From positions 1-52,044 of the forward strand of contig JAMPED010000012.1 in assembly GCA_023665325.1 (NCBI GenBank): 52,044 nucleotides of DNA. The letters are read 5' to 3'. Source of the DNA: Acetobacter sp. GTDB taxonomy: Bacteria; Pseudomonadota; Alphaproteobacteria; RF32; CAG-239. The position numbers were made by a program, and so were the translations under genes. Positions within the stretch are counted from its first letter, which is position 1; every line of letters begins with the position of its first letter. The notes under the pieces were generated by a model. It was not told where the DNA came from and searched no databases. It was given only the letters and a program-made list of their open reading frames with translations. This document shows positions 7,939 through 18,253 of this stretch, in pieces.

Positions 7939-8080
7939 TGTCAAATTTCGGGACATATGAGGTTAAAGTAAAAAATCGCTAGATCGAGCAAAAATTTGCC
8001 ATATGCTGGGGCCGATCGGGAGTTCGGGCCGACACGCCCGCGCGCGGCCCGGCGTAATCACGCTTTAAAGTGGTAAAGCG
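7939..8080 (+). repeat. intergenic element A (degenerate copy)
   Basis: It holds the left-arm word TCAAATTTCGGGA (7941-7953), a stem GGGCCG (8026-8031) facing CGGCCC (8045-8050) preceded by the usual TTCGG, and a second hairpin CGCTTTA (8061-8067)/TAAAGCG (8074-8080). The right operator arm and rightward promoter are missing, and the loop lacks the GAYMG core. The whole 320-bp gap 7781-8100 has no gene. Confidence 0.55.
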
Positions 8081-8666: not shown

Positions 8667-8695
8667 ATTATAGCAGAGATACGGGAATTTGTCAA
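8667..8695 (-). promoter_or_regulatory. leftward promoter of 8442-8636
   Basis: Minus-strand TTGACA (8695-8690), 17-bp spacer, TATAAT (8672-8667). Confidence 0.85.
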
Positions 8696-8705
8696 CTCGG
8701 TAATC

Positions 8706-8783
8706 TGCACAAAGATTGCCGCAGAAATTTGTACAACCTATATCTTGACAAAAAACTCGGCCCGCGGCGTTAGTTTGCGGGCC
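8706..8783 (+). repeat. intergenic element B (truncated)
   Basis: Operator TGCACAAA (8706-8713), 14 bp, TTTGTACA (8728-8735); then TTGACA (8745-8750) joined after only 8 nt to the hairpin GGCCCGC (8759-8765), loop GGCGTTAGTTT, GCGGGCC (8777-8783). The -10 box and leader are missing, as if about 25-30 bp between -35 and hairpin had been deleted. Confidence 0.75.
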
Positions 8784-8796
8784 GCCGAAAATAAAA

Positions 8797-8816
8797 GAGA
8801 GGGCCGAAGCCCTCTC
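8797..8816 (-). terminator. terminator of 8817-9038
   Basis: GAGAGGGC/GCCCTCTC with a 4-nt loop, followed on the minus strand by TTTTATTTT. Confidence 0.85.
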
Positions 8817-9038
8817 TTAGGCATACCGCCCGAAGAACAGCGCCAACTCCTTGCAGGCATCCGCCAAGTACTCCAGGGAGTAGTTGCCGTCCTCCTCGAA
8901 AATGCGGCGCGCCTGCTCCGCGGTGGCGCTGATGTAGTACTCCACCAGCTCGTCATGGTTCTCGGTAACAGGGAGAATCCCGAAAATCATGGTGGCGAGC
9001 ACCTGCTCGAAAGCCAAGATAGCGATAGTGTTCTTCAT
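8817..9038 (-). CDS. hypothetical protein, 73 aa
   Basis: ATG 9038 with an AAAGGGG site; TAA stop followed immediately by the terminator. A helical protein (ILAFEQVLATMIFGILPVTENHDELVEYYISATAEQARRIFEED) with no signal peptide. The start MKNTIAILAFEQVLATMIFG could be an amphipathic or weak membrane helix. Own promoter at 9070. Family unknown. Confidence 0.75.
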   Translation of the reverse strand: MKNTIAILAFEQVLATMIFGILPVTENHDELVEYYISATAEQARRIFEEDGNYSLEYLADACKELALFFGRYA

Positions 9039-9069
9039 TTTATTTACCCCTTTCCTTTACTGTATCTAA

Positions 9070-9098
9070 AGTATACCATACAAAGGACTATTTGTCAA
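9070..9098 (-). promoter_or_regulatory. leftward promoter of 8817-9038
   Basis: Minus-strand TTGACA (9098-9093), 17-bp spacer, TATACT (9075-9070). Confidence 0.8.
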
Positions 9099-9124
9099 GC
9101 ATTATTTTTCGATTATTTTTGAAG

Positions 9125-9150
9125 AAAAAGGGCGATTTCTCGCCCTTTTT
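9125..9150. terminator. bidirectional terminator after 9152-9544
   Basis: AAAAAGGGCGA-TTTC-TCGCCCTTTTT, with A-tract and T-tract on opposite sides. Confidence 0.85.
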
Positions 9151-9151
9151 C

Positions 9152-9544
9152 TCAACTTTTCGGCTTCCTTTTCTGCACAAGCGTCAATTCAAAGGTTTCG
9201 CCTGCACTTTGGAACTTGATTTGCCGCTCTTTGTTCGTGATTTCGATGTTTTCAGCAGCAAACTCGCCCGTTTCAGCGAGGAAAGTTGCCAACGCCGCAA
9301 TAATCAAACCTTTTGTTGCGTTCGGCTTGCGCTCACGCTTTGTCAAGTTGTAAACCGTAGGCTTTCTGTCGGCTCTTGTCATTTTGCTCACCACCTTTTG
9401 CTGTTCTGCCGACAGGTCATAGGGAGTTTTTTCGCCGCTATCAATCGCTCTGTCATACTCAAACAGCTTTTCAGCGTCCTCCCTGCTGATTTTCAGCTTT
9501 TCCATGAACAAGACTACCTGCTGTTCCTTATTCACTTTAGCCAT
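9152..9544 (-). CDS. hypothetical protein family A, copy 1, 130 aa
   Basis: ATG 9544 with AAAGGAGG upstream, TGA stop. It is a clear paralogue of the gene at 12254-12646: both are 130 aa and share the central RADRKPTVYNLTKRERKPNATKG block and the C-terminal GETFELTLVQKRKPKS. The N-terminal half is an acidic helical region with a predicted helix-turn-helix-like KISREDAEKLFEYDRAID; the C-terminal half is a beta-rich domain (ITNKERQIKFQSAGETFELTLV). The basic middle suggests nucleic-acid binding. It probably acts together with family B (10041 and 12707), which is duplicated alongside. Confidence 0.85.
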   Translation of the reverse strand: MAKVNKEQQVVLFMEKLKISREDAEKLFEYDRAIDSGEKTPYDLSAEQQKVVSKMTRADRKPTVYNLTKRERKPNATKGLIIAALATFLAETGEFAAENIEITNKERQIKFQSAGETFELTLVQKRKPKS

Positions 9545-9569
9545 CTAACCACCTCCTTTCTATGGTCTT

Positions 9570-9598
9570 ATTATAGCACAGGTCAGGCTATTTGTCAA
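9570..9598 (-). promoter_or_regulatory. leftward promoter of 9152-9544
   Basis: Minus-strand TTGACA (9598-9593), 17-bp spacer, TATAAT (9575-9570). The -35 box overlaps the stop codon of the upstream 9595-9810 gene. Confidence 0.8.
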
Positions 9599-9810
9599 AC
9601 ACTTTTTTCGATTTTTTTTCTTGACTGTACCCGCAAAATGCAAGTAATAGCGGGAACATTCACGCGCTTAGAAGTCCTGGTTAAATGCCGCATAGCCGTT
9701 TTCCAGCTTTGATAGATTGCCACATCTTCCCAATCGCCTTCAGGGTAATAGTGACCCCACAGCTCTTTCATCGGTCTGCGCTGGAGAGCATACTCATACT
9801 TGTTATTCAT
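9595..9810 (-). CDS. hypothetical protein, 71 aa
   Basis: I start at ATG 9810 (MNNKYEYALQRRPMKELW), which has CAAGGAGG 9 nt upstream; longer frames run into the promoter. The protein is basic and aromatic (HYYPEGDWEDVAIYQSWKTAMRHLTRTSKR), suggesting nucleic-acid contact, with no recognised domain. Promoter at 9838-9866. Confidence 0.7.
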   Translation of the reverse strand: MNNKYEYALQRRPMKELWGHYYPEGDWEDVAIYQSWKTAMRHLTRTSKRVNVPAITCILRVQSRKKIEKSV

Positions 9811-9837
9811 TTTTCTTACCTCCTTGATTGTATCCTT

Positions 9838-9866
9838 ATTATACACCCACCAAGAGAAAATGTCAA
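9838..9866 (-). promoter_or_regulatory. leftward promoter of 9595-9810
   Basis: Minus-strand TTGACA (9866-9861), 17-bp spacer, TATAAT (9843-9838). Divergent to the rightward promoter of element C, with the palindromic site between them. Confidence 0.85.
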
Positions 9867-9876
9867 GTAGTCAAAA

Positions 9877-9989
9877 TGCACAAATCGGGAGAAATAACTT
9901 TGTGCAGCTTGCCCACTTGACACGCGGAAAAATTTGTGGTATAATATAATATTACGCAAATTCGGCTCGGTGCGACAGTCAGCGAGCCG
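9877..9989 (+). repeat. intergenic element C (complete)
   Basis: Operator TGCACAAA (9877-9884)-N14-TTTGTGCA (9899-9906); rightward promoter TTGACA (9917-9922), 17 bp, TATAAT (9940-9945); then AATTCGG and a hairpin CGGCTCG (9963-9969)/CGAGCCG (9983-9989) with a 13-nt loop that contains CGACAGT. The rightward transcript would begin about 9952 and run antisense into family B copy 1. Confidence 0.8.
9917..9945 (+). promoter_or_regulatory. rightward promoter of element C
   Basis: TTGACA-17-TATAAT, consensus at both boxes, no protein gene downstream on this strand. Confidence 0.85.
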
Positions 9990-10040
9990 CCCAGGTTTTA
10001 CCCTGAGCGGCTCTTTGCTGATGCCCCAGAGGGGAGGGGC

Positions 10041-10433
10041 TTACGCCCCCTCGCCCTCGTCAGCGGCGGCGCTAAAAAGCGCCTTGCCCTTCTCGACCGC
10101 CTTGGTGACAGTGCCAGCCTCCACCATAGCCCGCAGGAGAGCGGCGGCCTTCTGGTTGGAGGACAGCCCCACGCCGTTCATAACCTGCGTAGCGGTCACA
10201 CCCTCGGTCTGGGTGAGCAGGAACTCCAGAATCTGGGCCTTGTAGCCCTCGTTCTCCTGCTGGGCCTTCGTGGGCTTCTTGCTATCGCCGCTGTTCTTCT
10301 TGGCGAGCAACTCGTTCTCGTGCCGCAGGTGAGCGATGACCTCCTCCACAGTGGAGCCGTTGGGAGCCGCCTTGCCCTCCAGCAGAGCGATGGCGTCCAG
10401 ATTGCGCATGGTCTTGGTAATCTTCTTAGTCAT
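10041..10433 (-). CDS. hypothetical protein family B, copy 1, winged-helix-like, 130 aa
   Basis: Start at ATG 10433 (MTKKITKTMRNLDAIALL) with AGAAAGGA upstream; TAA stop. It is a paralogue of 12707-13096: shared blocks are the N-terminal MRN-D-IA-LL-G, the central LAKKNSGD-KKPTKAQ and the C-terminal GVTATQVMN-LSSNQKAAALLRA-VEAG-V-K-VEKGKALF. The last block is a winged helix with the recognition helix around SSNQKAAALLRAMV, so DNA or histone-like binding is likely. Four leftward promoters in tandem lie upstream (10484-10807). Confidence 0.85.
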   Translation of the reverse strand: MTKKITKTMRNLDAIALLEGKAAPNGSTVEEVIAHLRHENELLAKKNSGDSKKPTKAQQENEGYKAQILEFLLTQTEGVTATQVMNGVGLSSNQKAAALLRAMVEAGTVTKAVEKGKALFSAAADEGEGA

Positions 10434-10483
10434 AGTCAAATCCTTTCTGGTTTTTGGGACTGTCCTTGTCCTTTTGTGTTTTT

Positions 10484-10512
10484 ATTATATCATAGGTTGA
10501 GCGGTTTGTCAA
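10484..10512 (-). promoter_or_regulatory. leftward promoter 1 of the tandem array before 10041-10433
   Basis: Minus-strand TTGACA (10512-10507), 17-bp spacer, TATAAT (10489-10484); A-rich UP-like tract upstream. Confidence 0.85.
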
Positions 10513-10583
10513 GAGGTTTTTTCAACTTGCAAGCTACTTTTTTCGCTCGCTCTCTTGCGTTCCTCTCTCCCTTTGATACCTTA

Positions 10584-10612
10584 ATTATATCACACTCTGT
10601 GCCGCTTGTCAA
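10584..10612 (-). promoter_or_regulatory. leftward promoter 2 of the tandem array
   Basis: Minus-strand TTGACA (10612-10607), 17-bp spacer, TATAAT (10589-10584). Its leader carries CAAAGGGAG but no start codon before promoter 1. Confidence 0.8.
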
Positions 10613-10685
10613 GAGTTTTTTCAGCTTTTCGGAAGTTTTTTCGCTGTCGCTTTTCGCCGTTCGTTTCTTCCTTTACTATACTCTT

Positions 10686-10714
10686 ATTATAGCACATCGG
10701 GAGCGGATTGTCAA
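10686..10714 (-). promoter_or_regulatory. leftward promoter 3 of the tandem array
   Basis: Minus-strand TTGACA (10714-10709), 17-bp spacer, TATAAT (10691-10686). Leader with TAAAGGAAG, no start codon. Confidence 0.8.
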
Positions 10715-10778
10715 GGGTTTTTTGAGATTTTTTTTTCGAGCCGTCAGGTCGTTTCCTCTCTCCCTTGACTGTATACAC

Positions 10779-10807
10779 ATTATACCACAGCCAACCGCAG
10801 AAAGCAA
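10779..10807 (-). promoter_or_regulatory. leftward promoter 4 of the tandem array
   Basis: Minus-strand TTGCTT (10807-10802), 17-bp spacer, TATAAT (10784-10779). Leader with AAGGGAG, no start codon. Confidence 0.7.
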
Positions 10808-10816
10808 TAGGCAGAA

Positions 10817-10958
10817 TGCACAAATTTCGGGAGCGCCGCAGACCTCATCTTTGTGCAATTTTCCATCTTGACTTTTGCTGACCGCGGGTGTATAATGGAA
10901 TTTCGGGCCGCGTCGATAGAAAGCGGCCCGCCGAGGCTTTGACACCAGCGGCGGGCCT
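10817..10958 (+). repeat. intergenic element D (complete, wide operator)
   Basis: Operator TGCACAAA (10817-10824)-N25-TTTGTGCA (10850-10857), i.e. 11 bp wider than element C; rightward promoter TTGACT (10868-10873), 17 bp, TATAAT (10891-10896); hairpin GGGCCGC (10905-10911)/GCGGCCC (10924-10930) with 12-nt loop GTCGATAGAAAA. A second, overlapping hairpin pairs GGCCCGCCG (10927-10935) with CGGCGGGCC (10950-10958). Confidence 0.85.
10868..10896 (+). promoter_or_regulatory. rightward promoter of element D
   Basis: TTGACT-17-TATAAT. Transcript would start near 10903 at the foot of the hairpin and run antisense through 10965-11132 to the terminator at 11172. Confidence 0.8.
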
Positions 10959-10964
10959 GGGGCT

Positions 10965-11132
10965 TACATGAAATACTCGAAGATGAACTCAACCAGCGGC
11001 CAATCCTCGTTAGGAACGGTGATTGTGAAGGCGTCGCTGTCCTCCTCGGGCATCCAGCCCATACGGGAAGCAATCTTTACAGCGTACTCAGGATTGACGA
11101 AAGCCCTCTTCTCGAAAGTGTAATTTTTCATG
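10965..11132 (-). CDS. hypothetical protein, 55 aa
   Basis: ATG 11132 to TAA 10967-10965, with AAAGGAGAAC upstream and its own promoter at 11162. The product starts MKNYTFEKRAFVNPEYAVKI and ends LVEFIFEYFM; it is a small alpha/beta protein with ASRMGWMPEEDSDAFTITVPNEDWP in the middle. It is enclosed between element D and a hairpin promoter, so antisense transcription should cover all of it. Family unknown. Confidence 0.7.
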
Positions 11133-11161
11133 TTGTTGTTCTCCTTTCCTTTGATGATACT

Positions 11162-11190
11162 ATTATAACATGGGGAAGGGCTTTTGTCAA
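11162..11190 (-). promoter_or_regulatory. leftward promoter of 10965-11132, inside a hairpin
   Basis: Minus-strand TTGACA (11190-11185), 17-bp spacer, TATAAT (11167-11162). The -35 box lies in the loop of the rightward terminator. Confidence 0.85.
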
Positions 11191-11211
11191 GCCCCTCCCC
11201 GCATTTTTTTT
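11172..11211 (+). terminator. rightward terminator wrapped around the -35 box
   Basis: GGGGAAGGGC (11172-11181) pairs with GCCCCTCCCC (11191-11200) with one mismatch, followed by GCATTTTTTTT. Confidence 0.75.
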
Positions 11212-11866
11212 AGAACTTGGGGAAAAGTGTGTAACGGTCGGCAAAGTCGAAAGTATGGCAATTTTTGGTAAACTTCTTGTGAGCCGCCATGCACTTGACA
11301 AAAATCTCCATTTCAATTTTGGCGTCCTCAAGTGCTGTGTGTTCCTCGTCATAGCTGGGATTATTTGTCAAGTAGGCGTAAACCGTTTGGGCGGAAGTGG
11401 AGCAAGATTTTTTTGTGCTGGAGGTCAAGCCGTTCTCTTGGCAAAACTTGACATACTTTTTGCGGATAACAAGAGTTTGCAGAGCCGCAAGCCAAATGTC
11501 AATAAATTCCCGTCCGTCAAGCAGGGAGCGGCAAGCAGTCTTGCCAAAGTCAAAGCCGCTGTTGAAAGCCATCACATACCGCACACCGTAAAAATCGCAC
11601 AAGCTGGAAACCATTTCCACAGCGTGTTCCTCGGTGTCAATCACTGTGGCGATACCATTCTTTACCATTTCGGCATAGCGCCCCATGTTTTTCTTGGCAT
11701 AGCTGTCAAGCTCGATTTCGCCGTAGTGTTCAGCGATAACATAGTTGAAACACGCCATCACATTTCCCACGCGGTCATGGATAATGCCGCCCAGGTGGTA
11801 GATACCCTTGGGCTTGGAAGCCCCGCCGAAGGTTTCAGTGTCCAGAGTGCAGTAGATGTTTTTCAT
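11210..11866 (-). CDS. DEDD-family 3'-5' exonuclease (DnaQ-like), 218 aa
   Basis: The start MKNIYCTLDTETFGG contains exonuclease motif I (TLDTET, the metal-binding Asp and Glu). FNSGFDFGKT near residue 103 is motif II with its Asp, and DEEHTALEDAKIEMEIF near residue 173 is motif III with the DEDDh-type His and final Asp. The enzyme hydrolyses DNA or RNA from the 3' end with two metal ions, for proofreading, repair or host nucleic-acid breakdown. Length (218 aa) matches stand-alone phage DnaQ proteins. ATG 11866 has AAAGGAAG upstream; a 23-codon upstream frame overlaps this start. Two tandem promoters at 11929 and 12022. Confidence 0.88.
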   Translation of the reverse strand: MKNIYCTLDTETFGGASKPKGIYHLGGIIHDRVGNVMACFNYVIAEHYGEIELDSYAKKNMGRYAEMVKNGIATVIDTEEHAVEMVSSLCDFYGVRYVMAFNSGFDFGKTACRSLLDGREFIDIWLAALQTLVIRKKYVKFCQENGLTSSTKKSCSTSAQTVYAYLTNNPSYDEEHTALEDAKIEMEIFVKCMAAHKKFTKNCHTFDFADRYTLFPKF

Positions 11867-11906
11867 AGTGATTACTTCCTTTCTTTTGTTGATTGAGGTT
11901 TACCAT
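11835..11906 (-). CDS. possible leader peptide overlapping the exonuclease start, 23 aa
   Basis: ATG 11906 with a GAGGG site in the exonuclease leader opens the frame MVNLNQQKKGSNHYEKHLLHSGH, which ends with TGA 31 nt inside the exonuclease gene in another frame. It could couple or attenuate translation, but it may also be chance. Confidence 0.3.
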   Translation of the reverse strand: MVNLNQQKKGSNHYEKHLLHSGH

Positions 11907-11928
11907 CGTTCCCTCAACCTGTGCTTTT

Positions 11929-11957
11929 ATTATAGCATACTCGCCGCTACTTGTCAA
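11929..11957 (-). promoter_or_regulatory. leftward promoter 1 of the exonuclease
   Basis: Minus-strand TTGACA (11957-11952), 17-bp spacer, TATAAT (11934-11929), with an A-tract (AAAAAAACTTGAAAAACC) upstream resembling an UP element. Confidence 0.85.
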
Positions 11958-12021
11958 GAGGTTTTTCAAGTTTTTTTATTTTTTCTTGGCCGCTGTTCGA
12001 CTTTCCCTCTTGACATTATTT

Positions 12022-12050
12022 ATTATAGCACGACAGGCCGCAGATGTCAA
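12022..12050 (-). promoter_or_regulatory. leftward promoter 2 of the exonuclease
   Basis: Minus-strand TTGACA (12050-12045), 17-bp spacer, TATAAT (12027-12022). No gene lies between it and promoter 1. Confidence 0.8.
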
Positions 12051-12060
12051 TGGGTAATAA

Positions 12061-12202
12061 TACACAAATTCGGGAAAGTTTGCGGCCGCAGGTTTGTGCA
12101 AATTGTCTATTGACAAATTGCTGGTCGTGTGTTATAATTAAAAATTCGGCGCGCGATGACCGTGAGCGCGCCGGCGGCTTTCGCGCATTAAAGCGTGAAA
12201 GC
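12061..12202 (+). repeat. intergenic element E (complete, wide operator)
   Basis: Operator TACACAAA (12061-12068)-N24-TTTGTGCA (12093-12100); rightward promoter TTGACA (12110-12115), 17 bp, TATAAT (12133-12138); AATTCGG; hairpin GGCGCGC (12148-12154), loop GATGACCGTGA, GCGCGCC (12166-12172); second hairpin GCTTTCGCGC (12177-12186)/GCGTGAAAGC (12193-12202). Confidence 0.85.
12110..12138 (+). promoter_or_regulatory. rightward promoter of element E
   Basis: TTGACA-17-TATAAT; transcription start expected near 12145, at the foot of the hairpin. Confidence 0.85.
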
Positions 12203-12220
12203 GAGCGATGAATAAAAATA

Positions 12221-12246
12221 CACCGCCCCGAATAATCGGAGCGGTG
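12221..12246 (-). terminator. terminator of 12254-12646
   Basis: CACCGC/GCGGTG outer stem with an inner CCGA/TCGG stem; TATTTTTATT follows on the minus strand. Confidence 0.8.
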
Positions 12247-12253
12247 GAAAATT

Positions 12254-12646
12254 TTAACTCTTGGGCTTGCGCTTCTGTACCAGGGTCAGCTCGAAAGTTT
12301 CACCAGCACTGGAAAATTTTACTTGCCGTTCCTTGTTGGTGATTTCCAGCCCGTCAACCTCAAAAGTTGCCCCCTCGGTCAACCACGCCGCCAGCGCCGC
12401 AATTATAGCGCCCTTGGTGGCGTTGGGCTTGCGTTCCCTCTTGGTGAGATTGTAAACTGTGGGCTTGCGGTCAGCCCTCGCATACTTGCGGCTTGCCTTT
12501 TCCTGTTCGGCGGTCAGGTCAAACTCGGTCTTTTCCCCTCGGTCAATAGCCTTGTCATAGGCGTAAACTTCGCGGGCTTCTTCCTCGGTACACTTTAGCC
12601 CCGCCTGTATTCTCTTGATGGCTTCCGCTTCGCTTTCTCTTGCCAT
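12254..12646 (-). CDS. hypothetical protein family A, copy 2, 130 aa
   Basis: ATG 12646 with a GGAGGGA site; TAA stop then a terminator. The C-terminal two thirds closely match copy 1 at 9152-9544 (RADRKPTVYNLTKRERKPNATKG, ITNKERQVKFSSAGETFELTLVQ), while the N-terminal helical part has diverged (MARESEAEAIKRIQAGLKCTEEEAREVYAYDKAIDRG). It lies 60 nt behind family B copy 2 without a promoter between them, so this A/B pair is an operon, unlike copy 1 where another gene and several promoters separate them. Confidence 0.85.
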   Translation of the reverse strand: MARESEAEAIKRIQAGLKCTEEEAREVYAYDKAIDRGEKTEFDLTAEQEKASRKYARADRKPTVYNLTKRERKPNATKGAIIAALAAWLTEGATFEVDGLEITNKERQVKFSSAGETFELTLVQKRKPKS

Positions 12647-12706
12647 TAAATCCCTCCTTTAATTGGGGATTGTGGGCGGGGATTTCTCCCCGCCCTCCCC
12701 TTGGGT

Positions 12707-13096
12707 TTAGCCCTCGGTGGAAAGGGCAAACAGAGCCTTGCCCTTTTCAACAGTCTTGGACACTTCGCCAGCTTCAACCAGCGCACGGAGCAGAGCCGCC
12801 GCTTTCTGATTGCTGGACAGGTTGCAGGCGTTCATAACCTCGGTAGCAGTCACGCCCTTGTCAACCGTGGTGAGGAAAGCAACGATTTCCTCTTTCAGCT
12901 TGGCGTTCTCCGCCTGAACCTTGGTCGGCTTCTTGGCGTCACCGCTATTTTTCTTCGCCAACAGTTCGTTCTCGTGGGTGAGGTGGGCAACGGCATCCTC
13001 AACGGTAGTGCCGTGCTTGACCTCGCCGCCCGTCAGCATGGCGATGATGTCGGTGTTGCGCATAGCCTTGGTGATTTTCTTGTTAGTGTTAGTCAT
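12707..13096 (-). CDS. hypothetical protein family B, copy 2, winged-helix-like, 129 aa
   Basis: Start at ATG 13096 (MTNTNKKITKAMRNTDIIAML) with AAAGGGAG upstream. It shares most positions with copy 1 (10041-10433): KNSGD-KKPTKVQ in the middle and GVTATEVMNACNLSSNQKAAALLRALVEAGEVSKTVEKGKALF at the end (given in parts), a winged-helix domain. Three tandem leftward promoters precede it (13149-13381), again like copy 1. The pair probably forms a small DNA-binding system with family A. Confidence 0.85.
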   Translation of the reverse strand: MTNTNKKITKAMRNTDIIAMLTGGEVKHGTTVEDAVAHLTHENELLAKKNSGDAKKPTKVQAENAKLKEEIVAFLTTVDKGVTATEVMNACNLSSNQKAAALLRALVEAGEVSKTVEKGKALFALSTEG

Positions 13097-13148
13097 AGTC
13101 GATACTCCCTTTCTGGTTTTTAGGTGTTTTCCCTCACCTGATGTAATT

Positions 13149-13177
13149 ATTATATCATAGGTTTGGCTGTTTGTCAA
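13149..13177 (-). promoter_or_regulatory. leftward promoter 1 before 12707-13096
   Basis: Minus-strand TTGACA (13177-13172), 17-bp spacer, TATAAT (13154-13149). Confidence 0.85.
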
Positions 13178-13247
13178 GAGGTTTTTTCAAGTTTTTTTAA
13201 TTTTCTTGACCGCCGCTTGACTACTTGACCTCTCCTTTGATACCTCT

Positions 13248-13276
13248 ATTATAGCAGGTTTCGCTCGGTTTGTCAA
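13248..13276 (-). promoter_or_regulatory. leftward promoter 2 before 12707-13096
   Basis: Minus-strand TTGACA (13276-13271), 17-bp spacer, TATAAT (13253-13248); leader with AAAGGAG but no start codon. Confidence 0.8.
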
Positions 13277-13352
13277 GCCCTTTTTTAGAAGTTTTTGAAA
13301 AGTTTTCGCTGACCCTCTCGGCGTTCGTGCCTCTCTCTTAACTTCTGTAGTT

Positions 13353-13381
13353 ATTATACCACGCGCCACGCCAGATTGCAA
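13353..13381 (-). promoter_or_regulatory. leftward promoter 3 before 12707-13096
   Basis: Minus-strand TTGCAA (13381-13376), 17-bp spacer, TATAAT (13358-13353); no start codon before promoter 2. Confidence 0.75.
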
Positions 13382-13391
13382 GATGGTATTT

Positions 13392-13527
13392 TGCACAAAT
13401 TCGGGAGCAAATATTTGTGCAAAATGCGCGCACTTTTCTCTTGACAAATTGGTGCCCCGTGTGGTATAATGGAAATTCGGCCCGCGTCGATAGTGCGCGG
13501 GCCGGCCAGGGCATTTCTGCCCCAGCC
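13392..13527 (+). repeat. intergenic element F (complete)
   Basis: Operator TGCACAAA (13392-13399)-N14-TTTGTGCA (13414-13421); rightward promoter TTGACA (13441-13446), 18 bp, TATAAT (13465-13470); AATTCGG; hairpin GGCCCGC (13479-13485), loop GTCGATAGTGC, GCGGGCC (13497-13503), extendable by one G-C pair; second hairpin around 13504-13527. Confidence 0.85.
13441..13470 (+). promoter_or_regulatory. rightward promoter of element F
   Basis: TTGACA-18-TATAAT with a TGTGG extended -10 context, directed antisense into the HAD gene. Confidence 0.8.
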
Positions 13528-13538
13528 AGCCGCACTTG

Positions 13539-14006
13539 TTACCCCTCCAGCAGTCCCCGCAGAGCGTCCAGCAGATTACAGGCAGTCGGGTCAATGGTTT
13601 CGCCCAAGTGCCAGCCCTTGCGGACTTTGGCGTTGTCGTCAACCAAAATCGCCGTTCCGTCACCAAGAGCACGCCGCACACTATCGGCTTTTGTAGCTCC
13701 GTACTGGACACCGTGGAAGTGGTCAGCCATAAAGCCCCATTTGTCCAGCCAAGCCTTTTTAGCCGCCCTTACAGCGTCCTTGTACTCGGCGGTGCTGTTC
13801 ATTGACAGCCAAGTGATAACTCGGATTTCCCAACCCGCCTGCCGCAGGAGGTTCAGCACTTCCGCCAGCTCGTCCATATCCCACATGGGAGCGGCGTCCT
13901 CGTAGGGACTGGCGTCCTCCGCCCGCAGTTTGCCAAGCCAGTTGTCAACCTTGTAGAGGTCAGCAATCGTACCGTCCATGTCAAAGCACACCATCTTGTT
14001 CATCAT
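13539..14006 (-). CDS. HAD-superfamily phosphatase, 5'-nucleotidase-like, 155 aa
   Basis: ATG 14006 (AAAGGAAG 7 nt upstream) opens MMNKMVCFDMDGTIADLY. FDMDGT is HAD motif I with the nucleophile and acid/base Asp; VITWLS is motif II (Thr); LVDDNAKVRKGW near residue 129 is motif IV with the metal-binding Asp pair; a Lys in KADSVRRALG could serve as motif III. Size and cap-less layout fit the phage 5'(3')-deoxyribonucleotidase-like group, which dephosphorylates nucleotides or a related small phosphoester. Substrate unproven. Promoter at 14037. Confidence 0.85.
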   Translation of the reverse strand: MMNKMVCFDMDGTIADLYKVDNWLGKLRAEDASPYEDAAPMWDMDELAEVLNLLRQAGWEIRVITWLSMNSTAEYKDAVRAAKKAWLDKWGFMADHFHGVQYGATKADSVRRALGDGTAILVDDNAKVRKGWHLGETIDPTACNLLDALRGLLEG

Positions 14007-14036
14007 CTTAATACTTCCTTTCCTTTTGTTGTATTC

Positions 14037-14065
14037 ATTATAGCACATCAGCGGCTACTTGTCAA
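14037..14065 (-). promoter_or_regulatory. leftward promoter of the HAD gene
   Basis: Minus-strand TTGACA (14065-14060), 17-bp spacer, TATAAT (14042-14037). Confidence 0.85.
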
Positions 14066-14075
14066 GAGGTTTTTA

Positions 14076-14234
14076 TTATTTTTTTAATTCGTACTCTTGT
14101 ACCCAATAACGACAGAAGTAATTATCTTTATTGAGTTTGTGCGCCCACTCTTCTGCCTTTTGCTGATTCTCCATGATACCATAGACAAATTGTCCATCTT
14201 CAGACTCTTCATAGATAACATACACCTACTTCAT
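14076..14234 (-). CDS. hypothetical protein with TAG at codon 3, 52 aa
   Basis: ATG 14234, with AAGGAAGGAG upstream, is followed by AAG and then TAG (14228-14226); with TAG as Gln the frame continues to TAA 14078-14076. The product MKQVYVIYEESEDGQFVYGI... EEWAHKLNKDNYFCRYWVQ is a compact alpha/beta protein with a plausible fold and no further interruption. It has its own promoter (14265-14293). It is the only leftward gene in the accessory block with an internal TAG, so its translation should depend on the recoding tRNA. Confidence 0.7.
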
Positions 14235-14264
14235 GGTATTCGCTCCTTCCTTTAGCTTGATTAA

Positions 14265-14293
14265 AGTATACCACAAACAAGAGAAGAAGTCAA
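14265..14293 (-). promoter_or_regulatory. leftward promoter of 14076-14234
   Basis: Minus-strand TTGACT (14293-14288), 17-bp spacer, TATACT (14270-14265). Confidence 0.8.
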
Positions 14294-14303
14294 GTAGGCA
14301 AAG

Positions 14304-14445
14304 TGACCAAATTTCGGGACTGCGGCGAGCCAGATTTTGTGCATCTTTTCTACTTGACTTTTGTTGCTTCATGTGTTATAATTGTGAATTCGGCGCGTCA
14401 GGACCGAGGACGCGCCGCCGAGGCTTTTTCATTCCCTCGGCGGCG
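14304..14445 (+). repeat. intergenic element G (complete, wide operator)
   Basis: Operator TGACCAAA (14304-14311)-N24-TTTGTGCA (14336-14343); rightward promoter TTGACT (14354-14359), 17 bp, TATAAT (14377-14382); AATTCGG; hairpin GGCGCGT (14392-14398), loop CAGGACCGAGG, ACGCGCC (14410-14416); second hairpin CGCCGCCGAGG (14413-14423)/CCTCGGCGGCG (14435-14445), a perfect 11-bp stem that overlaps the first. Confidence 0.85.
14354..14382 (+). promoter_or_regulatory. rightward promoter of element G
   Basis: TTGACT-17-TATAAT. The transcript would cover 14453-14638 antisense and end at the terminator 14681-14720. Confidence 0.8.
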
Positions 14446-14452
14446 TTCATCC

Positions 14453-14638
14453 TTAAAGTTTTTCGGCTGTAACTGCGGCAATCTGTGAGACATCAATGAA
14501 AAGTGGATACAACCCAGCAGGATTCTTGTACTTGATGCCAGCTGCAGTGCCATCAATGTTGGAGTAGGTAACTGAAAACGATTCAGCGATGAAGGTGAAT
14601 TTATCGCCTGTTTTCAAATAGATTGTAAATTCCGACAT
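14453..14638 (-). CDS. hypothetical protein, 61 aa
   Basis: ATG 14638 with AAAGGCAG upstream; TAA stop. A small beta-strand-rich protein (MSEFTIYLKTGDKFTFIAES, then YPLFIDVSQIAAVTAEKL) that resembles single-domain beta-barrel proteins such as phage 'DUF'-type Sm-like or PH-like folds. No catalytic motif. It lies exactly between the hairpin of element G and a promoter embedded in a rightward terminator. Confidence 0.75.
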   Translation of the reverse strand: MSEFTIYLKTGDKFTFIAESFSVTYSNIDGTAAGIKYKNPAGLYPLFIDVSQIAAVTAEKL

Positions 14639-14670
14639 ACATTTACTGCCTTTCCTCTTTTGATAGTCTT

Positions 14671-14699
14671 ATTATACCACGCGGGAGGGGAGTTGTCAA
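14671..14699 (-). promoter_or_regulatory. leftward promoter of 14453-14638, inside a hairpin
   Basis: Minus-strand TTGACA (14699-14694), 17-bp spacer, TATAAT (14676-14671). The -35 box lies in the hairpin loop. Confidence 0.85.
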
Positions 14700-14720
14700 C
14701 CCCTCCCGCAGATTTTTTTT
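14681..14720 (+). terminator. rightward terminator wrapped around the -35 box
   Basis: Perfect 10-bp stem GCGGGAGGGG (14681-14690)/CCCCTCCCGC (14700-14709), then AGATTTTTTTT. Confidence 0.8.
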
Positions 14721-15198
14721 AGAAACTTTTTGTTTCAGTGATGAAATACTTTGCGTTGTAATTCTTGCAAATCTCGTGGACAAATTGCGTTTCTTTCTGA
14801 TTGGAGCAGTACACATTGAAAGTTACCCATTTGTTATCGCTTGTGGCAATGTAGTTGTAGGACACTCCAAAATGATTAAGGTCTTGAACCACATTTTCAG
14901 TGTAGCGATTTCTTACAGAAACTTCCACTTTCCAGATTTTGTCTTTGCGCCCGATTTCCTCAACCCATTTGACAATGAACACGCCGACAAGGTTACAAGC
15001 GCCAACAATCACGACTTTCAGCCACAGGTCAAGCTCACACACCATGTAGACAACTACAATGGTATAGAAGCCATAGGCAAGGGCATTTGCCACAGCCGCG
15101 CCCACCTTGCCGCATTTCACAGTTGCAAGGCTCTTGATGGTCTGAATGACCACGTTGATGATGTTCAGAATGATGAAGATGATAAGCAGATTGTTCAT
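14719..15198 (-). CDS. multi-pass membrane protein with C-terminal domain, 159 aa
   Basis: The first about 80 residues hold three hydrophobic segments (LLIIFIILNIINVVIQTI; VGAAVANALAYGFYTIVVVYMV; WLKVVIVGACNLVGVFIVKWV). The remainder (WKVEVSVRNRYTENVVQDLNHFGVSYNYI, VTFNVYCSNQKETQFVHEI) is a ferredoxin-like alpha/beta domain. This layout matches the DUF5698/DUF2179 type found in Gram-positive bacteria, whose soluble domain may bind a nucleotide or regulator. Start at ATG 15198, AAAGGA upstream; promoter at 15232. Confidence 0.75.
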   Translation of the reverse strand: MNNLLIIFIILNIINVVIQTIKSLATVKCGKVGAAVANALAYGFYTIVVVYMVCELDLWLKVVIVGACNLVGVFIVKWVEEIGRKDKIWKVEVSVRNRYTENVVQDLNHFGVSYNYIATSDNKWVTFNVYCSNQKETQFVHEICKNYNAKYFITETKSF

Positions 15199-15231
15199 AG
15201 TTTCAAATCCTTTCCTTTACTTGATGATGTT

Positions 15232-15260
15232 ATTATACCACGTTTACTCTTGCTTGTCAA
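15232..15260 (-). promoter_or_regulatory. leftward promoter of 14719-15198
   Basis: Minus-strand TTGACA (15260-15255), 17-bp spacer, TATAAT (15237-15232); it overlaps the end of the upstream 15244-15429 gene. Confidence 0.85.
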
Positions 15261-15429
15261 GCGTTTCTTGCAAGATTTCTGAAAAAGTTTTCTTGTCCTC
15301 TTGCTTTGCCTTGCGGCGTGCCGCCCTCTTAAACTTGCGGCGCAGGTCATTATCAGGCTGGACAATACGCGGACAATTCAAATCCCACGCAGTATAATTC
15401 TTGCAGGTAGCACGTTTCAAGTAGTCCAT
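15244..15429 (-). CDS. basic hypothetical protein, 61 aa
   Basis: ATG 15429 with AAAGGAGG 9 nt upstream; TAA stop. The N-terminus has two Cys (CKNYTAWDLNCPRIVQ) and the middle is strongly basic (LRRKFKRAARRKAKQEDKK), a likely nucleic-acid binding helix. The gene end overlaps the next promoter by 17 bp, so transcription of the two units is intertwined. Family unknown. Confidence 0.7.
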   Translation of the reverse strand: MDYLKRATCKNYTAWDLNCPRIVQPDNDLRRKFKRAARRKAKQEDKKTFSEILQETLDKQE

Positions 15430-15456
15430 GCTGTGTTCCTCCTTTACTGTAATTAC

Positions 15457-15485
15457 ATTATAGCAGAAAAATCGCCACTTGTCAA
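15457..15485 (-). promoter_or_regulatory. leftward promoter of 15244-15429
   Basis: Minus-strand TTGACA (15485-15480), 17-bp spacer, TATAAT (15462-15457). Confidence 0.85.
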
Positions 15486-15495
15486 CATGGCATTG

Positions 15496-15614
15496 TGTAC
15501 AAATCGGGATAGAAATATCTGTGCAAATTACCTATTGACAAGCAGCGAAAATTGTGATACAATATAATGTTGCGCAAAAACGCGCCGCATTGGTCGTGGG
15601 CGGCGCGGCCGCCC
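15496..15614 (+). repeat. intergenic element H (complete)
   Basis: Operator TGTACAAA (15496-15503)-N14-TCTGTGCA (15518-15525); rightward promoter TTGACA (15535-15540), 17 bp, TACAAT (15558-15563); hairpin CGCGCCGC (15581-15588), loop ATTGGTCGTGG, GCGGCGCG (15600-15607). An alternative stem GGGCGGC (15598-15604)/GCCGCCC (15608-15614) excludes the first. On the minus strand TTTTT follows the first stem, so it may also end the AbrB transcript. Confidence 0.8.
15535..15563 (+). promoter_or_regulatory. rightward promoter of element H
   Basis: TTGACA-17-TACAAT; possible alternative -10 TATAAT 5 bp further. Confidence 0.75.
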
Positions 15615-15848
15615 TTAACCATTGGTCTCCTCAATCAGAAATCCATTTTTCTTTAGAACCTCAAGAGCGTTTGTAACTTCATCTTGAACTTCGGGACACT
15701 CAACACAAAGAAAGATTTTCCCATTCTCTTCGTGGGTGAAGAACTGATAGACCTGTCCCTCGTTCATGTGCAAACGTTCTCGAAGTTTTACAGGGACAAC
15801 CAATCGACCATACGAGTCTAATTTTCTACCGAAACCAGTTTCCACCAT
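15615..15848 (-). CDS. AbrB/SpoVT-type transcription regulator, 77 aa
   Basis: Residues 7-35 (GRKLDSYGRLVVPVKLRERL, then HMNEGQVYQFF) are a swapped-hairpin AbrB domain with the usual D-x-x-GR-x-x-(I/V)P-x-x-LR pattern. These proteins bind DNA as dimers or tetramers and act as global switches. The C-terminal part (EVQDEVTNALEVLKKNG) is helical and may form the oligomer. The start is ATG 15848 with only a weak ribosome site, so it may be coupled to the 15920-16033 gene. It is a candidate to bind the dispersed TGCACAAA palindromes, one of which lies 90 bp beyond its stop. Confidence 0.8.
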   Translation of the reverse strand: MVETGFGRKLDSYGRLVVPVKLRERLHMNEGQVYQFFTHEENGKIFLCVECPEVQDEVTNALEVLKKNGFLIEETNG

Positions 15849-15919
15849 AACTCGAGAATTTTTTCACCATACACCTAGCCTGCCGGAAATTCGACCCTGT
15901 TACGGGCCGGCTTCGAGAC

Positions 15920-16033
15920 TCACCATTCAGAGCAAATCTTTCCGCACTTCTCTTTTAGTAGGCAAGCGTTGCAGTTGTCTTGTCGCAAGCAATAGCGACG
16001 GATGAACGCCACAGCCCATTGCAGTAAGCGCAT
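15920..16033 (-). CDS. Cys-rich micro-protein, 37 aa
   Basis: ATG 16033 with AAAGGAG 6-8 nt upstream and a promoter at 16066; TGA stop. The product has an N-terminal helix (MRLLQWAVAFIRRYCLRQD) and five Cys (YC, CNAC, KCGKIC), enough for a metal site. It precedes the AbrB-like gene and probably shares its transcript. Too short for family assignment. Confidence 0.6.
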   Translation of the reverse strand: MRLLQWAVAFIRRYCLRQDNCNACLLKEKCGKICSEW

Positions 16034-16065
16034 GGTTTATACTCCTTTCTTTATTTTCTATAATT

Positions 16066-16094
16066 ATTATACAATAATTTTTTTAAAATGTCAA
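16066..16094 (-). promoter_or_regulatory. leftward promoter of 15920-16033 and the AbrB-like gene
   Basis: Minus-strand TTGACA (16094-16089), 17-bp spacer, TATAAT (16071-16066), with the AT-rich leader class. The -35 box starts in the U-tract of the upstream terminator. Confidence 0.85.
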
Positions 16095-16127
16095 AAACTG
16101 CGGCAATTCTAATCTTGCCGCAGTTTT
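16094..16127. terminator. bidirectional terminator
   Basis: AAAACTGCGGCAA (16094-16106) pairs with TTGCCGCAGTTTT (16115-16127); T-rich runs on both sides. It ends the 16130-16273 unit and would also stop rightward transcripts from element H. Confidence 0.9.
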
Positions 16128-16129
16128 CT

Positions 16130-16273
16130 TTATTTCTTTGATATCAAGGCTACCAAGAAAACAATGCCCGCAGGTACTTGTGCAATCAACGCCACCCAAG
16201 GTGTAATGTTATAACCAGCCCACAGCGCAAACATTTCAATACCATAGAACACTAACATAGCAATAGCAGTCAT
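16130..16273 (-). CDS. small two-pass membrane protein, 47 aa
   Basis: ATG 16273 (MTAIAMLVFYGIEMFALWAGY) with AAAGGAAGGG upstream; earlier in-frame starts lie in the promoter. Two hydrophobic segments (residues 2-18 and about 24-43) separated by an NITPW turn and ending SKK. Similar tiny phage membrane proteins act as holin-like, superinfection-exclusion or unknown membrane factors. Position away from any lysis gene argues against a holin. Confidence 0.65.
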   Translation of the reverse strand: MTAIAMLVFYGIEMFALWAGYNITPWVALIAQVPAGIVFLVALISKK

Positions 16274-16305
16274 TGTGTCTTGCTCCCTTCCTTTACTGTA
16301 GTTAT

Positions 16306-16334
16306 AGTATACCACAGCTTGCCGCTTGTGTCAA
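16306..16334 (-). promoter_or_regulatory. leftward promoter of 16130-16273
   Basis: Minus-strand TTGACA (16334-16329), 17-bp spacer, TATACT (16311-16306). Confidence 0.85.
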
Positions 16335-16344
16335 GTAGTCAGAT

Positions 16345-16374
16345 TGCACGAATTATAGGACAAGCCTTTGTGCA
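16345..16374. repeat. intergenic element I: operator without rightward promoter
   Basis: TGCACGAA (16345-16352)-N14-TTTGTGCA (16367-16374). No TTGACA/TATAAT follows; the only hairpin in the gap is the terminator-like stem at 16466. It appears to be a decayed copy that kept the operator. Confidence 0.65.
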
Positions 16375-16465
16375 CTTTGCACCTCGTCGTGCCGCAAACT
16401 TTTGTGCGTAGCCCCTCTCCCTGCCTCAACTAGGGCTTCAGCGGCTACTTACTAGATACAACGAA

Positions 16466-16494
16466 GACGCCGCAACTTCTACAGTCGCGGCGTC
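16466..16494 (-). terminator. hairpin just after the TAG that ends the 16504 frame
   Basis: GACGCCGC (16466-16473)/GCGGCGTC (16487-16494), 8-bp stem, 13-nt loop, TTCGTTG after it on the minus strand. If TAG is read through, ribosomes would translate this stem. Confidence 0.55.
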
Positions 16495-16503
16495 CTCTGC
16501 TAT

Positions 16504-16947
16504 CTATTCAGCGTACCACTCACACCACACCTTGACTATCTCGTCATCCTCTGCTATTGTTGGCGTGTGGTTATCTACCAGCCACAGCAAGAGGAAGCTG
16601 TTAGCATCTACCTGCCCCTCTACATCCCACAGATACCCTTGCTCGTCCTCCAGTGTAGTAGTACCATCGCTGTTGTTGGAGTATACCCAAGCGCCTACCA
16701 TTCTAATAGTCCCCAGGTCTTCACCCTTGCACCACGTCTCAAGAGTCTGCGTATCGAACATCTGTTCGAGTACCTCGTCCTTGTTATCAATGATAGCTTG
16801 CCTTGTGGCTTGCGCTTCGTGCGTCACTGTTGCACACACCACAAGCGCACAGACTGCGACAAGCACGCACACCGCAAGCCCCACAGCCCTCAGCGCCTGC
16901 ATGGCGCGGCGTCCCTCTGCCCTTACTACCTTGTTAGTATCCATCAT
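16504..16947 (-). CDS. single-pass membrane protein, 147 aa, ending at TAG
   Basis: Start at ATG 16947 (or 16944) with AAGGGAGG upstream, 10 nt behind the 16958-17128 gene. A basic N-terminus is followed by one membrane helix (LRAVGLAVCVLVAVCALVVCATV, about residues 18-40), then an acidic extracellular-type domain with many Trp and Asp (VDANSFLLLWLVDNHTPTIAEDDEIVKVWCEWYAE). Unlike all its neighbours the frame ends in TAG. With TAG as Gln it would extend 22 codons to TGA at 16438, through the hairpin at 16466-16494. Either form could be made, depending on the recoding state. Confidence 0.7.
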   Translation of the reverse strand: MMDTNKVVRAEGRRAMQALRAVGLAVCVLVAVCALVVCATVTHEAQATRQAIIDNKDEVLEQMFDTQTLETWCKGEDLGTIRMVGAWVYSNNSDGTTTLEDEQGYLWDVEGQVDANSFLLLWLVDNHTPTIAEDDEIVKVWCEWYAE

Positions 16948-16957
16948 TTTTCCTCCC

Positions 16958-17128
16958 TTAAATCTCTTTCGTTTCGCAGTACTCAACCTTGACGCAGAAC
17001 CCGCTGGGGAACTTGTAGCATTTGCGGAGGCCGCTGGGGAAGTGCCTGTAAACCTCGGTCACAACCGCCCAATCCTCGCCCTTATAGCCATTCAGATAGC
17101 TCTTCTCATTAGTCCTCGCCATCATCAT
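16958..17128 (-). CDS. hypothetical protein, 56 aa
   Basis: Start at the first of three consecutive ATG codons (17128) behind AAAGGAAAGGAG. Small basic and aromatic protein (MMMARTNEKSYLNGYKGEDWAVVTEVYRHF, then CYKFPSGFCVKVEYCETKEI) with three Cys. It is the first gene of a two-gene operon with the membrane protein. No family recognised. Confidence 0.7.
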   Translation of the reverse strand: MMMARTNEKSYLNGYKGEDWAVVTEVYRHFPSGLRKCYKFPSGFCVKVEYCETKEI

Positions 17129-17160
17129 CTTCGTGTTCTCCTTTCCTTTACTGTACCTAA

Positions 17161-17189
17161 AGTATACCACAGAATCGGGACGGTGTCAA
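17161..17189 (-). promoter_or_regulatory. leftward promoter of 16958-17128
   Basis: Minus-strand TTGACA (17189-17184), 17-bp spacer, TATACT (17166-17161). Confidence 0.85.
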
Positions 17190-17198
17190 CTGTCAGAT

Positions 17199-17277
17199 TG
17201 CACAAAGATTGCGCGATAAAATAGTGCATCATGCACAATGCTTGGGCAATTCGGCGCGCCTCGACCGTCAGCGCGCC
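17199..17277 (+). repeat. intergenic element J (truncated)
   Basis: Operator TGCACAAA (17199-17206)-N14-ATAGTGCA (17221-17228), followed without a recognisable promoter by AATTCGG and the hairpin GGCGCGC (17253-17259), loop CTCGACCGTCA, GCGCGCC (17271-17277). It is the right-most copy and marks the edge of the accessory block. Confidence 0.75.
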
Positions 17278-17530: not shown

Positions 17531-18253
17531 TCAACGCGAAGCTTCCTTAAACATATCATAATTATATCCGCGAGGTATCGCCCACACTACTCTCGGCGTA
17601 AGCATAGAATCAATCATCGCGTTCGCCATCATCTTGGGATCTTGTCCAAACACCCCACAACCCCAAGCGCCGCAAATAAAAGTAGTAACATCATTATCAG
17701 CTAAAATAGAACTCATAAAAGCCAATCTATCAAATACTACTTCTCTATTATCTTCTTCAGAAACATTACCATAAATCTTTGCATTATCCCAGTTAGGAGC
17801 GGCGCAAGTTAAAACATCTGCTCTCTTTTGTTTACCATCCCGCTCGAATATCACGTCTGGAGAATACAAAGCCCTGTCGAGATAAAGAGAATGATTATTA
17901 TGTTGTCTGTTCCAAGCATAATAACTGCCCTTGAAAGCTAAGAGTATGAGATAAAGATTACTCTCGTGGCACAAAGCTTCTTCTTGTGTCGTCATACCTT
18001 TTAAGAATCCACCGCCAGGATTATTGTAGCTGGCAAAGTTAAGAATACAAACTTTGCCAGGCCAGTCTTCTTCAAATAGCGCGCTCACCGTATCCATAGG
18101 AAGTAAAGTAGTTTGAGTCAAGCTGCAAGTACTACTAGGTACTAATGAATCGTAGATTTTAGTTCCTAAAATAGAATTTTTGGTATCTTCACTCATTCTG
18201 TTCTTAACTTCTTCTATCCAAGCTCTCGCGTGCTTCGCACTATAATCTCTCAT
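17531..18253 (-). CDS. microbial-type poly(ADP-ribose) glycohydrolase (TIGR02452-like), 240 aa
   Basis: The diagnostic motif is VCILNFASYNNPGGGFLKG (about residues 68-86) followed by MTTQEEALCHESNLYL: GGG plus QEE are the ADP-ribose-binding loop and catalytic Glu pair of bacterial/fungal PARG macrodomains. Later FICGAWGCGVFGQDP corresponds to the conserved GAWGCGVFxNDP segment. Length (240 aa) fits. The enzyme removes ADP-ribose from proteins or nucleic acids. In a phage this could reverse host ADP-ribosylation defences (for example DarT-type toxins); that role is inferred. It overlaps the P-loop gene by ATGA, so they are translated together. Confidence 0.88.
   Translation of the reverse strand: MRDYSAKHARAWIEEVKNRMSEDTKNSILGTKIYDSLVPSSTCSLTQTTLLPMDTVSALFEEDWPGKVCILNFASYNNPGGGFLKGMTTQEEALCHESNLYLILLAFKGSYYAWNRQHNNHSLYLDRALYSPDVIFERDGKQKRADVLTCAAPNWDNAKIYGNVSEEDNREVVFDRLAFMSSILADNDVTTFICGAWGCGVFGQDPKMMANAMIDSMLTPRVVWAIPRGYNYDMFKEASR

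Follow-up and report, generated by a model that had tools for sequence, protein, structure and literature searches.

The window analysed here is a stretch of 52,044 nucleotides (contig JAMPED010000012.1 of assembly GCA_023665325.1, filed under Acetobacter sp.) that carries phage DNA, and its early region contains a repeated two-part element, here called a module, which consists of a CGGGA mark and a GC-rich palindrome that starts about 75 bp further on. The genes between 8 and 17 kb are read as lying on the minus strand, based on open reading frames (ORFs) that follow minus-strand TTGACW-N-TATAAT promoters. The window features 23 such promoters, 17 of which are on the minus strand, versus 0.16 expected, and the promoter-rich genes near the modules are taken to be early genes. 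The first-pass annotation of this DNA listed eight hairpins whose paired stems differ in sequence and whose loops share a G-N-Y-M-G core. All eight are found, at most 1 nt from where they had been placed, with perfect GC-rich stems of 7–9 bp, in a scan that had the loop core as a search condition. An additional hairpin of the same size is located at 8025–8051, which makes nine, and the span is exactly 27 nt in eight of the nine and 25 nt at 17253. The AATTCGG that was said to precede most stems is present, as such or as AATTTCGG, at six of the eight listed hairpins; the hairpin at 8758 has AACTCGG and the one at 15581 has AAAAACGCG. All nine hairpins have CGGGA 75–76 bp upstream of their start, and none of the ten other [AT][AT]NCGGGA sites on both strands of the window is followed by a hairpin 68–83 bp on. 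In six modules a sigma70-type promoter is aimed at the hairpin from the other side, five of them exact and one with TACAAT. A transfer RNA search of the window found none.

The same layout is found in other phages. A scan of viral contigs for the promoter plus AATTCGG returned at least 120 stretches, and about 30 among the matches listed share the layout; the records that bear it look like rumen and gut samples. A looser pattern gave 47 matches in 19 of 20 layout-bearing records, a reversed control pattern gave none, and a narrower promoter pattern gave three stretches only. The motif ACAAATTNNGGGA plus promoter, with no hairpin asked for, was found in 60 viral and 14 genome-contig stretches. 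Sixteen loci with unrelated promoter-hairpin types (L006, L013 and others) were left out by identifier from the layout and helix statistics. Four chance genome matches (L281, L283, L287, and L293) were taken out of the helix statistics and kept in the count of 84/102 given below, where they count against the hairpin. Removal of near-identical rows reduced the enlarged set from 239 to 214, and 139 modules were kept for phase analysis.

The distance from mark to hairpin in the relatives was determined with no promoter required, and hairpins were accepted if they contained a CG step and had a loop length of 5 or more. Of 465 hairpin orientations, 38, 98, and 46 (182 in sum) have RGGA at 73, 74, and 75 bp ahead of the stem, respectively, versus about 3 per other position, and there is no peak one helical turn off (5 at 64, 2 at 85). 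The 201 hairpin orientations counted at ruler distance comprise 122 canonical ones with the + promoter inside, 41 of a type S, in which TTGACA precedes the stem by about 7 bp without a −10 box being found, and 38 others, some of them sound and promoterless and some read from the wrong strand. The non-redundant set features 73 canonical, 29 type S, and 23 other modules, and about 15 of these 23 are sound by eye, the remainder being hairpins read from the wrong strand. TTGACA alone yields 66 type-S candidates that include canonical hairpins read from the other strand, and candidates were counted only with RGGA at ruler distance. Two promoterless ruler modules in one record (L292) have quite different intervening DNA. 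The distance is also kept in the window where no + promoter is found (8025, 8758, and 17253) and in the two of nine modules where the + promoter lies 9 bp farther upstream. In 150 canonical elements, out of a set of 214, the GGGA-to-stem distance has a variance of 1.18, compared with 1.75 if its parts were independent (0/5000 permutations), and an 18-bp promoter spacer is accompanied by a shorter −10-to-stem gap (7.29 versus 7.88), which is a partial compensation. Because the distance varies less than its parts would independently, the hairpin keeps its register with the GGGA mark more closely than with the start of transcription.

These results bear on the possibility that transcription from the + promoter yields an RNA whose 5' end folds into a hairpin, either a stabilized antisense or small RNA or an antiterminator leader similar to put. 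A 5'-cap RNA leader was initially preferred because the stem starts 7–8 nt after the −10 box, as it does in most canonical elements, and it was demoted after the type S hairpins and the distance-variance test. The promoters are strong, the loops of the short size class are weakly conserved in one orientation, and the transcript would lie antisense across an early gene's 3' end. However, the hairpin is kept in the type S orientations and in the window copies with an absent or shifted + promoter, and its place follows GGGA more than the −10 box. There is also no G-U excess on the + strand (5 versus 11 on the other strand), in a test that is without power since terminator-like hairpins of the same loci give 48 versus 45. 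The window has no Rfam match at gathering score. An RNA of this kind is considered unlikely, with a chance that is still appreciable.

The minus-strand early promoters stand in a phase relation to the palindrome. A minus promoter is detectable in 62 of the 139 non-redundant modules, and its −35 edge falls near 62, 85, 96, 106, and 119 bp from the stem, with a best period of 11.4 bp (R 0.74) that was reached in 0/5000 trials under each null, uniform and jittered positions. A dyad, TGCACAAA..TTTGTGCA with up to 2 mismatches, lies between the divergent −35 boxes, and its half-site TTTGTGCA, where found (26 of 46 elements), lies 16–18 or 27–28 bp before the + −35 box, positions that are one turn apart. 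Lattices of this kind are a property of double-stranded DNA, and the element is therefore read as double-helical.

The first-pass annotation had proposed that selection acts on pairing rather than on stem sequence, and this is borne out, as the arms covary across the phage family far beyond the window. Two-sided stem changes occur in 83 cells of an alignment of 42 hairpins, versus 26.6 in shuffles (0/500); 34 of these rows were preselected for perfect stems and the remaining eight are those first annotated. Since the rows were preselected, the unbiased support comes from stem counts. Among 102 relatives picked by the upstream DNA motif and promoter only, with no hairpin required, 84 are directly followed by a perfect stem of 6 bp or more, compared with 47 of 568 control promoters of the same loci, and the mean folding energies are −20.1 and −3.5 kcal/mol, respectively. 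A third group, excluded from the control, consists of 110 promoters with GGGA or AGGA near the right place and without the full motif, and 53 of these have such a stem. In the enlarged set, a stem of at least 7 bp is found in 162/214 elements versus 55/4280 shuffled sequences. In all 42 rows stem pair 6 is C-G and pair 7 is G-C, and pairs 3–5 show three to four pair types. The palindrome span is bimodal, with classes of 22–29 and 32–40 nt, one case at 18, and none of 162 at 30–31. Stems are 7–15 bp long, the commonest loops are 9 nt (48) and 11 nt (25), 4-nt loops occur in 10 of 176 helices, and the loops of the short class have a weak consensus in one orientation (n = 76). A difference in folding energy between the strands was discarded as evidence, since a perfect palindrome has the same stem on either strand. 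Some of the long palindromes, judged by eye, are briefly unpaired after about six pairs, most clearly as TC opposite TC, and this interruption is shared between phages.

The claim of an RNA family with an invariant loop core did not survive the comparison with relatives. GNYMG is present in 6/6 filtered module hairpins of the window and in 23/137 outside it, where 15.9 are expected, and it was rejected as a family motif. The loop core, being near chance elsewhere, is therefore a local trait of the window's phage, perhaps kept there by descent.

Palindromes at promoters are usually operators, and the modules could be ordinary dimer operators whose arms are kept identical by template switching that homogenizes inverted repeats. 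The conserved CG steps and the size classes one turn apart suit recognition of double-stranded DNA. However, the variable triplet differs among copies within one phage, which is therefore hard to explain by a single sequence-reading protein, and homogenization alone would not fix the palindrome length, so that this origin is regarded as improbable.

The modules occur at many of the junctions between early genes that have promoters of their own, immediately ahead of the promoter of the next gene, and a divergent promoter is often inside the ruler. The elements of the window and of two long records lie near a switch of coding strand, on the strand opposite to the nearby promoter-rich genes. The median distance from the palindrome to the 3' end of the next ORF on the opposite strand is 46 nt, and 122 of 147 are within 150 nt, with ORFs called mechanically at 45 aa or more. 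This nearness would suit a second intrinsic terminator of the opposite-strand gene that ends beside it, as would the T-rich DNA that follows the palindrome on the opposite strand in the promoterless types. However, many copies have, ahead of the palindrome, a separate terminator-like palindrome that brings a T-run of its own, as judged by eye, and an A-run of at least 4 lies within 20 nt in 76/151. Canonical copies carry AATTTCC and no T-run, and a terminator does not need a fixed distance to CGGGA, which leaves this explanation only a slim chance.

The place of the modules at cassette boundaries, their orientation on one strand per record (19/19 records with matches), and gene paralogues that occur in differing order between phages would fit a recombination site for the exchange of early-gene cassettes through an integron-like folded DNA. 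Homology breakpoints fall at modules in 8/152 cases versus 7.8 expected, in a small sample. Profiles for Phage_integrase, Resolvase, Y1_Tnp, and RVT_1 each gave no match in 11 records, which are possibly fragments; for the integron-type or attC-like tyrosine recombinase (PF00589) the control was positive in 14/14, and the enzyme could be the host's. With no enrichment of breakpoints in this small sample and no match to the three recombinase and transposase families in these possibly fragmentary records, the recombination site was rejected as very improbable.

The arrangement is best read as a bipartite element made up of an asymmetric mark of about ATT-NN-RGGA (CGGGA in the window), a ruler of about 74–75 bp of variable sequence, and a palindrome of 27 or about 37 nt. 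The palindrome has conserved CG steps and covarying arms, the spacing is fixed across promoter arrangements with compensation, and the palindrome is in helical phase with the early −35 boxes. Because it has two fixed contacts and is phased with the early promoters, the element is best read as the seat of a regulatory nucleoprotein complex. The favored interpretation, held tentatively and at slightly less than an even chance, is that of a double-stranded DNA element at early-gene boundaries, the palindrome of which is read as folded DNA by a regulatory complex. One protein complex of fixed size would hold the mark and the palindrome together, and negative supercoils in the wake of strong divergent transcription would extrude the palindrome. 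This would account for the conservation of pairing and not of sequence. Bound to one helical face with respect to RNA polymerase, the complex would switch or tune the early promoters. The more specific proposal is that of a protein complex measuring off some 75 bp between CGGGA and an extruded hairpin read by shape, possibly as a supercoiling sensor that gates host-takeover promoters; it is to be taken with somewhat more doubt. The annotation had concluded that the structure acts as RNA or, in brackets, as single-stranded DNA; the structure stands, and RNA is the less likely of the two readings. Folded DNA fits better because the hairpin is kept where no + promoter is found, its position goes with a mark some 75 bp off more than with the transcription start, and the neighboring promoters are in helical phase.

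Several points weigh against the folded-DNA element. The stem mismatches, including the G-U pairs counted above, are too few to separate DNA from RNA, and most ruler modules do have a + promoter (122/201 orientations), with a stem that usually starts 7–8 nt after the −10 box, as would be expected of an RNA as well. A control set of other hairpins from the same loci has RGGA at 73–75 bp in 63/954, versus about 22 from its own average; this excess is taken, not proved, to be modules missed by the filter. Many of the relatives are homologous, and rows inflate the counts despite de-duplication. Additionally, an ordinary dimer operator needs no arm covariation, so that the argument hangs on the proposed folded-DNA step. 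The element recurs in large rumen and gut phages, where it punctuates the apparent host-takeover genes, and its reader would be a new regulator. Stem covariation, which is usually taken as proof of RNA, coexists here with a double-helix ruler and phasing, and may also mark DNA that is read by shape.

The positions of the features are given in Table 1. Some palindromes lie between two convergent promoters, with each start near one palindrome foot (L008, L100, L240, L246, L269, and L273), and the window has three tandem minus promoters at 10480–10720, about 100 bp apart, with short leaders and no obvious gene between them. Other contigs feature different conserved promoter-hairpin units, namely AAATTCGGGGGAGCA.. 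and TTCGGCAaaat..TGCCGAA.

Table 1. Positions of module parts in the window, and of related features in other records (L handles).
Feature	Position	Strand	Remarks
CGGGA mark, module 1	7949..7953	+	hairpin start 75 bp on; no + promoter, no dyad found
CGGGA mark, module 2	8682..8686	+	inside spacer of minus promoter 8667-8695
CGGGA mark, module 3	9886..9890	+	
CGGGA mark, module 4	10828..10832	+	
CGGGA mark, module 5	12071..12075	+	
CGGGA mark, module 6	13402..13406	+	
CGGGA mark, module 7	14315..14319	+	
CGGGA mark, module 8	15505..15509	+	
CGGGA mark, module 9	17176..17180	+	inside spacer of minus promoter-like stretch 17161-17189
Palindrome 1	8025..8051	+	27 nt, CGGGCCG-13-CGGCCCG; no + promoter found
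Palindrome 2	8758..8784	+	27 nt; type S, TTGACA 13 bp upstream, no -10 found
Palindrome 3	9963..9989	+	27 nt; + promoter 9917-9945, about 9 bp farther upstream than in modules 4-7, CGGGA unmoved
Palindrome 4	10904..10930	+	27 nt
Palindrome 5	12147..12173	+	27 nt
Palindrome 6	13478..13504	+	27 nt
Palindrome 7	14391..14417	+	27 nt
Palindrome 8	15581..15607	+	27 nt; + promoter (TTGACA at 15535, TACAAT) shifted about 9 bp upstream, like module 3
Palindrome 9	17253..17277	+	25 nt; no + promoter found
Sigma70-type promoter, module 4	10868..10896	+	
Sigma70-type promoters, same type	12110-12138, 13441-13470, 14354-14382	+	
Early-gene promoter	9838..9866	-	-35 on the helical lattice of the family
Further minus early promoters, -35 likewise on the lattice	8667-8695, 12022-12050, 14265-14293, 15457-15485, 17161-17189	-	
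Dyad	9877..9906	.	between divergent -35 boxes
Other dyads	8706-8735, 10817-10857, 12061-12100, 13392-13421, 14304-14343, 15496-15525, 17199-17228		
Long palindromes with unpaired interruption	L028, L031, L062, L253, L260, L268		
Winged-helix-like paralogues	L118 714-1058, 2422-2781, 4764-5108		
ERK-core family	L118 226-618, 3836-4168		
Phass-1 arrangement	L313 26728-26770, 28909-28940, 30660-30790, 34870-34990		
Contigs with the other promoter-hairpin units	L006, L032, L041, L079, L107, L115; and L020, L044, L066, L108		

Small winged-helix-like paralogues that are 66% identical, with weak matches of IclR/MarR type, lie beside modules on the minus strand at 10041–10439 and 12707–13096. Another early protein family with more than one copy, which has a conserved ERK core and 63% identity, is encoded on the same strand at 9152–9544 and 12254–12646. 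The winged-helix-like paralogues near modules, including the three in L118, are candidate readers of the element, as is the second paralogue family. The early region also encodes, on the minus strand, a macro-domain protein at 17531–18253 that matches microbial poly(ADP-ribose) glycohydrolase (PF10021, E 3.7e-25) and a small protein at 15615–15848 that matches a PHROG annotated as a toxin-antitoxin antitoxin (E 2.1e-9). The late genes at 38237–47536 and 47595–51959 (+) are interrupted by in-frame TAG (16 and 14 codons), as reported for phAss-1, and form open frames of 3099 and 1454 aa only with TAG read as an amino acid; the first of these frames overlaps a tape-measure match. The protein at 34438–35805 has relatives in Enterococcus phages EF1 and H1, Lactococcus phage 949, and the gut phage phAss-1, with every identity under 60%, and in at least 80 viral-contig stretches. 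A search with the 267-aa protein at 19975–20778 found no relative among viral contigs. The promoter-plus-GC pattern was found in none of the four phages EF1, H1, 949, and Phass-1. The hairpins in an 11-kb part of the early region of EF1 are AT-rich or terminator-like, and one has RGGA at 73 and 77. In Phass-1 (OQ749652) the same dyad, CGGGA, and promoter arrangement is seen, partly by eye, with palindromes that are short or degenerate; the main text of the phAss-1 paper uses the words promoter and hairpin 0 times.

Among the matches listed in a search of open-licence literature, covering titles and abstract openings, no description of an element of this form was found. Because of this, and because each known system differs in a tested or visible trait, the element is rated as a new kind of control element, with a proposed mode of working. 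T4-type phages reportedly carry mobile regulatory cassettes named PeSL (promoter early, stem-loop), said to have been described by Arbiol et al. in 2010, with many copies of a promoter plus stem-loop between small early genes. The PeSL is said to drive the next gene, whereas the + promoter of the modules opposes the flanking genes or is absent. In contrast to PeSL, the early genes have their own minus promoters, the stems vary with covariation, and the CGGGA mark lies 75 bp off.

The target of diversity-generating retroelements (DGRs) is described as a hairpin or cruciform with a GC stem of 7–10 bp, in which structure and not sequence matters, and a partly conserved 4-nt GRNA loop, which is located beside the variable repeat at a flexible distance (PMC3240598). 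The modules resemble this target in the GC stem, the precedence of structure over sequence, and the partly conserved loop, but their loops are rarely 4 nt and most commonly 9 and 11 nt. A DGR target site was rejected, as the reverse transcriptase profile (PF00078, RVT_1) had no match in the 11 records, possibly fragments, with a control that was positive in 3/14 genomes.

A hairpin promoter for a phage-coded polymerase is suggested by the virion RNA polymerase of N4, the early promoters of which are described as having a DNA hairpin extruded by supercoiling and stem bases that are variable but paired (PMC4496689). The modules likewise place a hairpin next to an A-rich stretch of the early region, and the paired bases of its stem vary. 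The N4 promoter has a short stem and a small specific loop, whereas module stems are 7–15 bp long and their larger loops are weakly conserved in sequence. Sigma70-type promoters are present at the modules, and none of the six late proteins scanned matches a polymerase family, the PF00940 polymerase profile being one for which the control was silent. A promoter of this type is the least probable of the explanations considered.

The put RNA of phage HK022 is described as an RNA of about 70 nt with two stem-loops that suppresses termination (PMC9378689), and, as in the modules, there is a stem-loop directly after an early promoter (putL). Compared with this description the modules have one hairpin, the place of which follows CGGGA more than the start, and a put-type position is not kept in the window, where the + promoter is not found in 3/9 copies and shifted in 2/9. 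A second terminator-like palindrome follows the hairpin in many copies, as seen by eye. Cluster O mycobacteriophages feature 17-bp dyad repeats, with more than 30 palindromes per genome, many of them intergenic and with invariant arms (PMC4351075), whereas the arms of the modules vary and covary.

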